Assembly: GCF_003254705.1 (NCBI RefSeq)
Contig: NZ_QFYR01000001.1
Span: 1,116,001-1,180,000, forward strand
From: Phenylobacterium deserti
GTDB taxonomy: Bacteria; Pseudomonadota; Alphaproteobacteria; Caulobacterales; Caulobacteraceae
Reading direction: 5' to 3'
Length of the DNA stretch: 64,000 nucleotides
Of this stretch, positions 50,108-55,469 are shown piece after piece. The stretch's first letter is position 1. The number at the start of each line of letters is the position of its first letter. The translations under genes and the position numbers were made by a program. The notes below the pieces were generated by a model that saw only the letters and a list, made by a program, of their open reading frames with translations, was not told the origin of the DNA and ran no database searches.

Positions 50108-50172
50108 CGGTCGGGCCTTGCGTTGCTTGGCGCGCTTGTAGCCGCCCTGCGGCCGTGCGCAAAACCCTCCCG

Positions 50173-52335
50173 ATGACCCGCATAGCGTCCGTCCTTCTGC
50201 CCATGCCCCTGCCGGAGGCGTTCGACTACGCCGAGCCGGAGGGTCTTGGCCTGGAAGTCGGTGACCAGGTGGCCGCGCCGCTTGGTCCTCGGCTGATGCG
50301 CGGCGTGGTGGTCGGCATCCGTGATGGCGTCGGCGGCAATCGGCCGCTGAAGCCGATCGAGCGCAAGCTGGACGAGCCGCGCCTGCCGCCGGGATCCATC
50401 GAGTTCGTCCAATGGGCGGCGCGCTACGCCGTCGACTTTCCAGGCCAGCCTCTCGCCATCGCCCTGCGGGGCGCGCGGGCGCCCAAGCCCAAGCCGGTGA
50501 AAGTCGTGCGAACAACGGGCGCTGAGCCTGCGCGGCCCACGTTGGCGCGCAGCAAGGTTCTCCAAGCCGCCGCTGGGGCAGACCTCAGCCCAGCCGACCT
50601 CGCCCGCGCGGCCGGGGTCTCATCTGGGGTGGTGAAAGGGCTGATCGACGAAGGCGTGCTGGCCCTGCACGAGATTGAGGCGGTGGCGCGCTTCGATGAG
50701 CCGGATCTCAGCCGGCCTGGATCGCGCCTCAGCGACAGCCAGGCGGCGGCCGCCGACGTGCTCAAGGAGATGCTGCAGGCGGGCGGCTTTCAGGTCGCCC
50801 TGCTCGACGGGGTGACCGGCTCGGGCAAGACGGAGGTCTACCTGGAAGCCGCCGCCGCAGCCTTGGCCGAAGATCCGACCGCCCAGGTGCTGGTCCTGCT
50901 GCCGGAGATCGCTCTCACGCAGGCGGTCATCGGCCGCGTCGCGGCGCGTTTCGGCGTGCAGCCCGGCGAGTGGCACTCCGATGTCGCCCCGCCGGCCCGT
51001 CGCCGGGTCTGGGAAGCGGTCGCCGGCGGGCGCTGCCGGATCGTTGTGGGCGCGCGCTCGGCCCTGTTCCTCCCCTTCACCAACCTGCGCCTGATCGTCG
51101 TCGACGAAGAGCACGACGGCTCCTTCAAGCAGGAGGAGGGCTTCATCTACCAGGCGCGTGATCTGGCTGTGGTGCGCGGCAAGATCGAAGGTTCGTGCGT
51201 GCTTCTGGCTTCCGCGACCCCGTCTCTGGAGACCCTGCGCAACGCCGAGCAAGGCCGCTACCGCTGGCTGCGGCTTTCCAGTCGTCACGGCATCGCCCAG
51301 TTGCCGGAGATCCAGCTGGTGGACCTCAGGGCGACGCCGCCTGAGACCGGGCGTTGGCTCTCTCCGCCCCTGGTGCGGGCGATGGCGGAGACCCTTGAGC
51401 GGGGCGAGCAGACCCTGCTGTTCCTTAACCGCCGCGGCTATGCGCCCCTGGTGCTCTGCAAGGCGTGCGGTGAGCGCATGACCGCGCCCGACACCGACTC
51501 CTGGCTGGTGGAGCACCGCTACTCGGGCCGTCTGGTCTGCCACCTGACCGGCTTCTCCATGCCCAAGCCGGAGCGCTGCCCGCACTGCAGCGCCAAGGAC
51601 AGCCTGGTCTCCATCGGTCCCGGCGTGGAGCGGGTGGAGGAGGAAGCCCGCGCTCTTTTCCCCGACGCGCGAGTGGCCGTCTTCTCCTCCGACACGGTGT
51701 TCGACGCCCGTGAGGCGCGGCGGCTGGTGGAGGCGATGGCCGAGGGACAGATCGACATCCTCGTGGCCACCCAAGCGGCCGCCAAAGGCCACAACTTCCC
51801 AAAGCTCACCCTTGTCGGCGTCGTGGACGCCGACCTTGGACTGCGCGGCGGCGACCTGCGTGCGGCCGAGCGGACCTACCAGCTTCTGGCGCAAGCCACC
51901 GGCCGGGCGGGGCGTCGGGACCGGCCTGGGCGCGCCCTGCTGCAGACCTACGCGCCCGAACACTCCGTCATGCAGGCGCTGCAGGCGCAGGACCGCGACG
52001 CGTTCGTGGCGGCGGAGATGGAGGAGCGCCTGTTCGCCAAGCTGCCCCCGTTCGGCCGGCTGGCGGCGGTGATCGCGTCCGGAGCGGACCCGGGGCAGCT
52101 CGACGCTTTCATGCGGCAGATGGCCGAAGCGGCCCCAAACGCGGAAGGGGTGGAGGTCTACGGGCCTGCCGATGCGCCTCTGAGCCTGGTGCGCGGGCGC
52201 CGCCGCAAGCGCTTCCTGGTAAGAGCAGACCGCGGGGTCGACCTGTCGGCCTACATGACCACCTGGCGGGCCCGGGTGAAGCCGCCAGCCTCCGTGCGGC
52301 TGGCGATCGACATCGATCCCTATAGCTTCCTCTAG
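50173..52335 (+). CDS. priA: Primosomal protein N' (PriA helicase) with reduced zinc region
   Basis: A 720-residue replication-restart helicase. The N-domain (residues 1-110), Walker [16 protein letters not shown] box ([15 protein letters not shown]), and motifs V-VI ([22 protein letters not shown]) are intact. The zinc region has only Cys 429, 432, 456, 469 and 472, where PriA usually has eight in four CxxC pairs. Pair one and pair four, which bind the first zinc, are present; pair two is replaced by APDTDS and pair three keeps one Cys (CHLTG). Start at ATG 50173; GTG 50155 would add six residues. Confidence 0.94.
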
Positions 52336-54590
52336 GCGAGCAGCGGCAGGTTCATCACCTGCTCTCCGGTCATGGCGTTCAGCTGCGCCGGCGACATGGC
52401 GGCCACCTGCGTGGTGCTCAGCGCCCGAACCTGGGTGACCGTCAGAGCTGGGATCTGCGAGGGGGCGAGGGCGGTGATCTGCTCGAGACCCATGGACGCG
52501 ATCACCGAGGGAGTGAGCCACTTCACCTGCGCGGCGGTCAGGGCGCTGATCTGGCTGTTTGTCAGCCGGCTGAACTCGGTGGCTTGCAGGCTGCCGATCT
52601 GGGTCGACGTGAGGCTCGCCACCTGAGTGGTCGTCAGTGCGCCGAAAGCGGTGCTGCTCAGCGAGAAGAGGTTGGTCGTGGACAGGGCGCCCATCTGCGC
52701 GCCGGTAAATGCGGTCAGCTGGGTGGAGGTGAACTTCCCGAAGTCGGTGGTGCTGAGGCTGCGCACCTGGGCGGCGTTGAAGCCGCCGATCTGGGTCGCC
52801 GACAGCATCGCCACCTGGGTGGCGTTCAGGGCGGGCAGGTTGGTGGCGGAGATCGCGCCGATCTGCGCTGGCGTGAGCGCCGAGATCTGGTCCGTGGTGA
52901 GGCCGGCCAGGCCGGTAGCGGATACGCCGCCGACCTGATTGGCCGAAAGGCCGGCGATCTGCGTGGCGGTGAACTCGCCGATGTCTACGGCCTCCAGGGC
53001 CGCGAACTGGGTGCGGGACAGCCCCTGCAGCTGAGTGGCGGTGAGGCTGGCCACCTGAGTGGCGGTCAGGCTGGACAGGTTGGTCGCTGACAAGGCCCCC
53101 AGCTGGGACGCGGTCAGGACGCCGAGCTTCGCTTCCGCGATTTCCGCGAAATCGCCGGCCAGCAGGCCGCGCACGGTTGTCGCGCTCAGGCCTTGGAGTT
53201 GCGTGGTCGTGAGGCCCGCCACCTGAGATGCGTCGAGCGCGCCGAAATTCGTCGCCGAAAGCCCGCCCATCTGTGCGGCGCTGAGCGCCGACAGTTGAGT
53301 GACGCTGAAGGAGGCGAGGGCGGTGGGGTTCAGAGCCCCCACCTGCGTCGCAGCGAGGCCGGCGATCTGGCTGGCCGAGAATTCGGCGATCTCTTCCGGA
53401 CGCAGGCTGCGGGCTTGGAAAGGCGAGATCCCGCGCAGCTGCGTGGTCGTGAACGCGGCGATGTGCGTGGCGTCCAGAGCCTGGAAGTTGGTGAGCGACA
53501 GAGCGCCGACTTGGGTAGGCGTGAGGGCGGCGATCTGGTCGCGCGACAGGCGGCCGAACTCGCTCGGGGAAAGCGCGCCTATGGCTTCGGCGCCAAGCGA
53601 GCGGATCGCCGTGGCATTCAGAGCCGCCAGTTGCGTGTCGCTGAAGGACGAAATGAGCGTAGCGCTCAGTCCGCCCAACTGGGACGCCGAGAGGCTCGCC
53701 ACCTGGGTCGAGGAGAGCTTGCCGAAGTGAGCGGCAGGCAGGGCGGCGAACTGGGTTGCGCTGATGGCGCCGAACTGGGTGGGCGTCAGCGCGCCGATGA
53801 TCTCGCCGGACAGCGACCAGAGGTTGGAGGCGCTGACGGCGCCGATCTGCGTCGTCGACAGGCCGGTGATCTGGGTGGCGCTGAGCTCGGCGAAGTCCGT
53901 CGCGCTGAGGCCGGCGATCTGCGACCGGCTCAGGCCGGCGACCTGCGTCTCGGTCAGGGTGGCGACCTGGGCGCCGCTCAGGGACGACAGCGCCGTCGCG
54001 TTCAGTCCGGAGATCTGAGTGGAGCCAAGCCCGGCCAGCTGCTCCAGGCTGAGCTGGGCGACATGGGTCGCATTGATGGCCGTCATCTGGCCCGCCGTAA
54101 GCGCGCCCAGCTGGGTGGCCGAGAACTCCTGGATGTCGCTAGCCGTCAGCGCACCAATCTGGGTGGTGGACAGGCCTCGCATCTGGGTGACCGTCAGGCC
54201 CGCAATTTGGCTGGCGTCCAATTCCGAGAAGCGGGTGGCGGAGAACGCGGCCACTTGCCCGGCGCCGAGAGAGCCCAGACGCGTCGCATCGAAAGCGCTG
54301 ATCTGTGTGTCCGAAAGGGCGTTCAGCTGGGTCCCGTTCAGCGCCAGCAGCTGGTTGGTGTCGAGACCGAGCGTTTGCGGCAGGTGCGGGATCTGCGTGA
54401 CCGTCAGCGCCTTGACCTGGTTGGCGGTCAGAGAGCCGATCTGCTGAACGCTCAGCGTCTCGATGGCCGAGACGGTCAGGGCCGCAACCTGGCTCGCACC
54501 AAGGCCGCGGATGTGCGTCGTCGTCAGGTTCTGCAGAATGCTGCGGTCGAGCCCTGCGATCTGGGCCGTCGAGAGATAGGAAATGGGCAT
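52332..54590 (-). CDS. Octapeptide-repeat protein with nested seven-octad period
   Basis: A 752-residue protein made almost wholly of 8-residue units with consensus L-[ST]-x-[TS]-Q-[IVLF]-x-[AGS]. Eight units follow MPISY, one shortened 6-residue unit (LPQTLG) follows, then 84 in unbroken register, then LPLLA. No Cys, few charges, no signal peptide, no RTX motif. Octads with D/E/H at position 5 and E/K/R at position 8 occur at ordinals 19, 29, 36, 43, 50, 60, 67, 77, 84 (spacing 7 or 10). The stop overlaps the priA stop by four bases. Similar repeat proteins exist in other proteobacteria as I recall; function unknown. A solenoid is likely. Confidence 0.75.
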   Translation of the reverse strand: MPISYLSTAQIAGLDRSILQNLTTTHIRGLGASQVAALTVSAIETLSVQQIGSLTANQVKALTVTQIPHLPQTLGLDTNQLLALNGTQLNALSDTQISAFDATRLGSLGAGQVAAFSATRFSELDASQIAGLTVTQMRGLSTTQIGALTASDIQEFSATQLGALTAGQMTAINATHVAQLSLEQLAGLGSTQISGLNATALSSLSGAQVATLTETQVAGLSRSQIAGLSATDFAELSATQITGLSTTQIGAVSASNLWSLSGEIIGALTPTQFGAISATQFAALPAAHFGKLSSTQVASLSASQLGGLSATLISSFSDTQLAALNATAIRSLGAEAIGALSPSEFGRLSRDQIAALTPTQVGALSLTNFQALDATHIAAFTTTQLRGISPFQARSLRPEEIAEFSASQIAGLAATQVGALNPTALASFSVTQLSALSAAQMGGLSATNFGALDASQVAGLTTTQLQGLSATTVRGLLAGDFAEIAEAKLGVLTASQLGALSATNLSSLTATQVASLTATQLQGLSRTQFAALEAVDIGEFTATQIAGLSANQVGGVSATGLAGLTTDQISALTPAQIGAISATNLPALNATQVAMLSATQIGGFNAAQVRSLSTTDFGKFTSTQLTAFTGAQMGALSTTNLFSLSSTAFGALTTTQVASLTSTQIGSLQATEFSRLTNSQISALTAAQVKWLTPSVIASMGLEQITALAPSQIPALTVTQVRALSTTQVAAMSPAQLNAMTGEQVMNLPLLA
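52350..54575 (-). repeat. Tandem degenerate 24-base coding repeat, about 92 copies
   Basis: The octapeptide units are 24-base DNA repeats that keep codon register throughout (one 18-base unit near 54382). Recurring core bases are GACCCAGATC-like on the minus strand (encoding TQI). Copies are diverged at the DNA level, so this is an old array, not recent slippage. A 168-base (seven-unit) super-repeat is superimposed from about 54149 to 52500. Confidence 0.8.
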
Positions 54591-54677
54591 GACGCCCCCA
54601 CGCCGCAGCTGATTCGCCTGCCTGCGAAGGCTAGGGCGTCAGCGGCCCCGCTTCAATCGTGAGGGCGTCCAGGCGGC

Positions 54678-55469
54678 TCAGTGGCCGCCGCCGCCCTTCT
54701 TCCGAGCTCCGCGCCGCGCAGCCATGTTCAGGCCCTCCACCAAGGCGGAGAAGGCCATGGCGGCGTAGATGTAGCCCTTGGGCACGTGCACGCCGAACGC
54801 ATCGGCGATCAGCATCGCGCCGATCATCAGCAGGAAACCGAGGGCCAGCATGACCACGCTGGGGTTGTTGTTGATGAACTCCGCCAGCGGGTTCGCGGCC
54901 ACCAGCATCAGGCCGACGGCGATCACCACCGCAACCACCATGATCGGCAGGTGCTCGGTCATGCCGACGGCGGTGAGGATGGAGTCGATCGAGAACACCA
55001 GGTCGAGCAGGATGATCTGGATGATGGCCGAGCTAAAGCTGACGGGCTTGACCGTTCGTTTGTCGAGCAGGTCGTCACCGCCAACCGGGTCCACCGTGTG
55101 ATGGATCTCGGTGGTGGCTTTCCAGACCAGGAACAGACCGCCTGCCAGGAGGATCAGGTCGCGCCAGGAGAACGCCAGGTCTACGACAGGGTGGCCTTGT
55201 GCGTCCGTGGGAACCGGAAAGGGCAGCGTCAGAACCGGCTGCACAAGGCCGACGATGAAGGCGAGAGTCGATAGAAGAACCAGGCGCATGACCAGGGCCA
55301 GGCCGATGCCGATGCGGCGCGCCTTCTTGCGCTGCGCTTCCGGCAGCTTGTTGGAAAGGATCGAGACGAAGACCAGGTTGTCGATGCCGAGCACGACCTC
55401 CATCACCACGAGGGTGATCAGCGCCGCCCACGCCGCCGGACTGACCAGCAGCTCTGCAATTTCACCCAT
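54678..55469 (-). CDS. TerC family integral membrane protein
   Basis: A 263-residue protein with seven to eight membrane spans. The family marks are [20 protein letters not shown] and the second acidic motif [15 protein letters not shown], with [20 protein letters not shown] between. TerC-like proteins are linked to tellurite resistance and, in several bacteria, to manganese export at the membrane; a metal role is the likelier one. The C-terminus is short, basic and Gly-rich. No other ter gene is present. Confidence 0.92.

Follow-up and report, generated by a model that had tools for sequence, protein, structure and literature searches.

The repeat gene analysed here lies in a 64,000-nucleotide stretch of the genome of Phenylobacterium deserti (contig NZ_QFYR01000001.1, positions 1,116,001 to 1,180,000), which we call the window. 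It occupies positions 52332..54590 on the minus strand, an extent given in a preliminary description of this DNA and confirmed by the open reading frame (ORF) list and the translation. Its product, a protein of 752 residues built of eight-residue units (octads), is a clear member of the Pfam family PF20080 (ALTTAQ_rpt), with a score of 268.6 bits (cut-off 26.4) and 24 matching stretches. Residues 1-69 (54384..54590, minus strand) comprise the start MPISYL and the first eight octads; they are followed by a register break, LPQTLG (residues 70-75; 54366..54383, minus strand), where orthologs have other non-octad residues, and by the main array of 84 octads in a single register (residues 76-747; 52350..54365, minus strand), which has a period of 3.43 octads. 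Invariant columns in a four-ortholog alignment are abundant in the C-terminal segment (residues 707-752; 52335..52472, minus strand). The MPISYL start is common to orthologs, being found in the proteins of genomes G010, G017, G011 and G026, and the ratio of nonsynonymous to synonymous substitution rates (dN/dS) between the orthologs L083 and L077 is 0.147 (766 codons). From these two results we conclude, at the level of sequence, that the ORF is a genuine gene kept by purifying selection. On one side is priA (50155..52335, plus strand, identified by its PriA Pfam domains), which is convergent with the repeat gene and overlaps its 3' end by 4 bp. On the other, 87 bp upstream and on the same strand, is a gene for a TerC-family membrane protein (54678..55469, minus strand; PF03741, 6.2e-47). 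We treat priA as a neighbor only and claim no part for the terC-like gene in the mechanism proposed below. PriA proteins up to 86% identical to this one put the genome in Phenylobacterium (Caulobacteraceae).

The preliminary description proposed about 92 octads in one register. That count and register hold (8 + 84 = 92, with LPQTLG as the sole break), but only 21 of the 92 octads conform to the strict motif it gave, L-[ST]-x-[TS]-Q-[IVLF]-x-[AGS], and 82 to a relaxed one. It was right that the protein has no Cys (by amino acid composition), no signal peptide (the N-terminus shows no hydrophobic stretch) and no RTX motif (the RTX calcium-binding repeat PF00353 is not among the protein's profile matches). 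It also singled out nine octads with D, E or H at position 5 and E, K or R at position 8, and we recovered the same nine. Counting LPQTLG as unit 9, they are units 19 (LTASDIQE, 54126..54149), 29 (LSATDFAE, 53886..53909), 36 (LPAAHFGK, 53718..53741), 43 (LSPSEFGR, 53550..53573), 50 (LRPEEIAE, 53382..53405), 60 (LLAGDFAE, 53142..53165), 67 (LEAVDIGE, 52974..52997), 77 (LSTTDFGK, 52734..52757) and 84 (LQATEFSR, 52566..52589), all on the minus strand. The gaps between them are, as had been noted, 7 or 10 octads exclusively; for nine octads placed at random among 84 the exact probability of gaps of 7 and 10 alone is P = 1.1e-8, or about 2e-6 if any two gap sizes are allowed. Unit 15 (R at position 5, E at position 8) is likewise charged at both sites, four units ahead of unit 19. 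A further claim, that the octad three units after each charged one has N, A or G at position 5, is correct for six of the nine and fails for units 22, 39 and 87, which have H, L and V.

The spacing had been read as a 56-residue super-repeat, seven octads long with three more added in places, but this was a misreading: the true period is 3.43 octads, or 27.4 residues, and gaps of 7 and 10 correspond to two and three such periods. For the 30 of the 84 octads without Gln at position 5, Rayleigh's z is 10.75 for a period of 3.43 octads, against 0.23 for one of 7, and the periodogram has its maximum at 3.425 octads, a strength equalled in none of 5000 shuffles. Rounded to whole octads, 3.43 multiplied by 1, 2, 3, 5, 7 and 9 gives 3, 7, 10, 17, 24 and 31. 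When the array is folded at 3.43 octads, Gln stands at position 5 in all 10 octads at 180 degrees and in none of the 10 at 315 degrees, and charge at position 8 is confined to two adjacent 45-degree sectors of the turn, being found in 7 of the 11 octads in the sector at 0 degrees and in 3 of the 10 in the sector at 315 degrees, and in none of the other 63. Such a spacing might merely record recent tandem duplication of blocks of 7 or 10 octads, with no structural meaning, and paralogs are indeed strongly homogenised–for example, a 1730-residue paralog in the same genome, by 31 octads. The window copy, however, is not homogenised (its excess at lag 7 is only 2.8 standard deviations) and yet holds a single phase across the array, and lineages with different repeat unit lengths (24, 31, 38, 55 and 62 octads) all fall on the one 3.43-octad ladder. 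We consider duplication by itself an extremely unlikely explanation.

The 3.43-octad period is also present in ALTTAQ arrays of several proteobacterial families. We examined 108 octad runs, each at least 25 octads long, taken from 170 protein records (some sequences were entered twice, as P and L records). The periodogram peak lies above all 40 shuffles in 69 runs; when rounded, the peak period is 3.4 or 3.5 octads in 57 of these, 2.0 in 8 and some other value in 4. Among 126 runs of 30 or more octads, from Phenylobacterium, Caulobacter, other alphaproteobacteria and part of another proteobacterial family, f198, there is a strong self-similarity lag in 56, and 51 of these lags are within 0.1 turn of a whole turn. 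Their mean distance from a whole turn is 0.055 turn, compared to 0.25 by chance, in loci that are related and do not amount to 56 independent cases; the strong lags off the ladder are 34, 59, 16 and (twice) 8 octads. In most of the arrays examined the special octads are not randomly spaced, the opposite of the outcome that would have told against the preliminary description: they keep the 3.43 period, though part of f198 and many database homologs have a period of 2 octads instead. Gene length follows a similar pattern. In the four-ortholog alignment, L083 and L077 have 7 octads that are absent from the window protein, and L128 lacks 24 octads that the window protein has. Net internal gaps in pairwise comparisons among the window protein and those of G010, G011, G017 and G026 are 0, 7, 17, 24 or 31 octads (one sum falls a residue short, and the G011-G017 difference was derived from lengths). 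In the arrays of these families, whole turns account for most of the net length differences and repeat units.

In the AlphaFold2 (AF2) model of the whole protein there is a short helix in nearly every octad, with a mean predicted local distance difference test score (pLDDT) of 90.3; a model of residues 284-507 has a pLDDT of 91.4 and a predicted template modelling score (pTM) of 0.83. Neither contains any strand. The helices, with the clustering of charge at position 8, support the earlier guess of a regular solenoid with a charged stripe, and we regard the predicted solenoid fold of the window copy as well supported. The best eight PDB structure matches to residues 284-507 are all mesothelin (8cx3 and 7ued among them), which PMC10035497 describes as a right-handed solenoid of short helices; it differs in having two or three helices per coil and disulfides, and is a human cell-surface protein. 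Among the window protein's Pfam matches up to E = 0.1 there is no Mesothelin family and no ARM or HEAT profile. These matches suggest that the solenoid is right-handed and that the sequence period is one turn, so that 3.43 octads would make one turn and the charged octads one stripe. The solved chain of HeliScrew4 (PDB 9zem), known to us from its aligned sequence and its name, matches the protein in sequence with E = 1.2e-14 over 90 residues. It has octads of the LTPEQIAA type; it is 120 residues long and, by its name, was probably designed.

Several results weigh against this interpretation of the fold. The mesothelin template modelling (TM) scores for residues 284-507 reach only 0.2-0.4. A Foldseek search with the whole model puts other large helical solenoids first, with mesothelin at ranks 33, 42 and 44. 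The armadillo repeat solenoid has 42 residues per turn, and on that value a rough count from alignments with armadillo structures puts a turn at about 3.5-3.7 octads and not at 3.43. According to PMC11795689, AF2 can make confident errors on repeats. HMMER also reports a match to LRR_EndoS at 38.8 bits, over its cut-off. This match, many weak sequence matches to leucine-rich repeat (LRR) chains, and a turn of 27 residues, which suits an LRR coil, would favor an LRR-like or beta-solenoid fold in which one turn takes about 27 residues. Against such a fold, both AF2 models have helices and no strand, the structure matches are helical solenoids, and the S/T-x-x-Q/D/E pattern of the octads is a helix N-cap motif. 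We therefore did not assign the protein to the LRR families, despite the LRR_EndoS score (a match to LRR_8 is below its cut-off), and we consider an LRR-like fold very unlikely. Among viral structures, the screw segment is matched best by uncultured Caudovirales phage proteins (A0A6J5QPU1, A0A6J5Q6G8 and A0A6J7X2V1), with E-values from 6.5e-6 to 3.3e-4.

In the helical screw that we propose, each octad would be one short helix capped by Ser or Thr at position 2, and at about 3.43 octads per turn the 92 octads would form about 27 turns of a right-handed alpha-solenoid. One face, where position 5 is D/E/H and position 8 is E/K/R and where N/A/G-type octads are adjacent, would be a continuous charged or polar stripe, and the remaining surface would be uniform Gln, Ser and Thr. 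Arrays would lengthen and shorten by unequal exchange, with mainly whole-turn changes (7, 10, 17, 24 or 31 octads) being tolerated because they leave the stripe in phase.

The 1730-residue paralog, the second ALTTAQ array in this genome (L039:7513-12705, plus strand), is followed 132 bp downstream by a gene for a glycosyltransferase of family 41 (GT41) with tetratricopeptide repeats (TPR; L039 12838-14916, plus strand). This gene matches PF13844 (5.9e-80) as well as TPR profiles, and contains both of the GT41 segments found in the genome. With its catalytic profile and TPR, the linked enzyme is predicted to be a GT41 of the O-GlcNAc-transferase type. We rejected an HMW1C-type N-glycosyltransferase for it (NF049992, 29.5 bits against a cut-off of 1000; TPR present). 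Beyond it lie a TPR gene, whose relative at L163 codes for a product that also bears an FkbM methyltransferase domain, and an NDP-sugar epimerase-like gene.

ALTTAQ arrays are present in 28 of 398 proteobacterial genomes sampled, and in Phenylobacterium they go together with this enzyme. A close relative of the array-linked GT41 (E below 1e-150, a threshold of our choosing) occurs in 15 of 18 ALTTAQ-bearing genomes and in 0 of the 83 others (Fisher P = 2.7e-15 over 101 genomes, kinship ignored), and in all 15 it adjoins an array. GT41 genes of some kind are present in 100 of the 101. Arrays were found in 5 of 13 Caulobacter genomes tested, with a GT41 beside the largest fetched array in all five, and G836, from the same family as Caulobacter, likewise has one beside its array. 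In a FastTree phylogeny of 27 array-linked GT41s (from Phenylobacterium, Caulobacter, G836, G326, G394, G299, G854 and G557) and 16 unlinked ones, hand-picked from the survey that found a GT41 in 100 of the 101 genomes, 26 linked enzymes form one clade (local support 1.0) that includes none of the unlinked; the single linked enzyme outside it is that of G557 (L220). The GT41-linked array of Phenylobacterium sp. J367 (G011; L043:5179-13992, plus strand) is spread over several overlapping open reading frames, as a frameshift or misassembly would produce. G022, G083 and G086 (L038, L172 and L173) have a common 1216-residue frame with the 3.43 period and no GT41 of the linked type.

Some arrays also lie near type I secretion system (T1SS) genes. 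The array of G299 and that of G394 are each divergent from a T1SS-type HlyB/HlyD pair, and a GT41 lies within 6 kb. HlyB- and HlyD-like genes are upstream of the array, on the same strand, in 5 of the 11 f198 genomes sampled (from 16 f198 carriers), and HlyD scores over its NCBIfam cut-off in the three cases tested (L156, L217 and L218). This adjacency in homologs points to putative type I export of the arrays.

Many related arrays have the gene for a dedicated glycosyltransferase or an exporter as a neighbor, which points to a rod on the cell surface with a coat of sugar. Because homologous arrays adjoin TPR-GT41 genes and, in some lineages, T1SS genes, the family most likely consists of exported, O-glycosylated rods. 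In the light of two bacterial systems, the simplest account of the large arrays is that they are modified in the cytoplasm before export. In PMC3983070, the large adhesin HMW1 receives its sugars in the cytoplasm from a partner enzyme of family GT41, HMW1C, and is then exported; that system has two-partner secretion, an N-linked sugar and an enzyme with an AAD domain and no TPR, whereas the array system has TPR with GT41 and, where seen, T1SS-type genes. FlmG of Caulobacter, in the same bacterial family as Phenylobacterium, is described in PMC7591256 as an O-glycosyltransferase with TPR that works in the cytoplasm on a protein exported to the surface, in its case flagellin. By analogy, the TPR-GT41 would O-glycosylate large arrays in the cytoplasm, followed by type I export, and the arrays would serve as surface adhesins or a coat. 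The Gln/Ser/Thr faces might supply many acceptor hydroxyls, and the stripe might be an edge for binding or self-assembly. The window copy would be a smaller, stand-alone member modified and exported in trans. Neither a GT41 nor a T1SS gene adjoins it, so its export, glycosylation and surface role are inferred from its kin. We think it fairly probable that the window protein is a right-handed octad screw with a charged stripe, from a family of cytoplasmically O-glycosylated, exported surface rods, and is served in trans. Our wider proposal, that exported, O-glycosylated, phase-locked screws are scattered over proteobacteria, that they change almost only by whole turns, and that many lineages have a dedicated TPR-GT41 acting before type I export, is tentative, and we hold it slightly more likely to fail than to stand as a whole.

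A number of observations tell against these proposals. No GT41 gene was found beside the window copy in a search of the window, nor any T1SS gene among the neighbors tested, and the one HlyD above its T1SS cut-off in this genome is about 450 kb distant. There is no GT41 in the stretches fetched for G022, G083 and G086 (3 of the 18 Phenylobacterium genomes), G164, G265 and G872, and the stretches fetched for the 11 f198 genomes contain one in a single genome. The two T1SS ABC proteins tested match TIGR01846 best, yet score 605.7 and 588.6 bits, below its cut-off of 725.55. A period of 2 octads is preferred over 3.43 in several f198 arrays and in the database homologs as a group. The window copy could instead be an intracellular rod or scaffold with the same screw, neither exported nor glycosylated, with the GT41 and T1SS links concerning the large paralogs alone. 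The lack of these genes around it fits this, as do the lack of a visible signal peptide, the position of the gene 87 bp behind the terC-like gene on the same strand, and the occurrence of further, smaller lone arrays without GT41 in 4 of the 5 Caulobacter genomes that have arrays. However, little follows from the missing signal peptide, as type I secretion substrates have no N-terminal signal, and a GT41-linked array is present in all five genomes in which a priA-adjacent copy was seen (P. deserti, G010, G011, G017 and G035). We regard an intracellular rod as possible but rather unlikely.

Among known families, PF20080 shares the octad repeat itself, but its Pfam model is a 38-residue stretch. 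Full-text literature (largely without subscription papers and bioRxiv) yielded nothing naming ALTTAQ or HeliScrew, and literature listings none describing the ALTTAQ family, its turn or a GT41 partner. ALTTAQ is thus a named Pfam family otherwise undescribed in the searchable literature, in which we did not find the 3.43-octad turn, the stripe or the dedicated GT41 described. The family gains a testable geometry that can be read from sequence alone, 24 octads in 7 turns, and with it a likely rule for gene length change, a likely modifying enzyme and a likely export route. For protein design the array is a natural template of unusual regularity, and it also makes it possible to study how an enzyme that glycosylates proteins locates repeated sites on a solenoid.

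The interval between priA and terC (window 52336-54677; loci L051-L130) is a variable slot. TerC is in view at 61 of 80 fetched priA loci, nearly all without a repeat gene, and the gap between the two genes is at most 600 bp in 34 of the 61 and wider in 27. An ALTTAQ gene occupies the slot in at least 3 of the 80 loci, plus G010. In all, a copy adjoining priA was seen in five genomes (P. deserti, G010, G011, G017 and G035); the G035 contig ends within the repeat gene, leaving only the priA side visible. The longest frames in the intervals of L100 and L054, the only frames searched there, have no Pfam match. Fourteen of the 27 wide intervals have a related longest frame, a major facilitator superfamily (MFS) transporter in the single one tested (L057), and the L053 interval contains a peptidase M3 gene.

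Other features of the family are more scattered. Among the best 120 of at least 241 homologs, 51 also contain Peptidase_C2 (PF00648; hand count), and PF00353 co-occurs with ALTTAQ in P0097 and P0101. Arrays at L214, L216, L225 and L226, part of f198, are thousands of residues long with a period of 2 octads (16 residues), and the ALTTAQ match in G626 lies within a 6436-residue open frame. P0089, a 1040-residue eukaryote transcriptome protein (EukProt), has related repeats and many Cys and, judged by eye, probably a C-terminal membrane helix.

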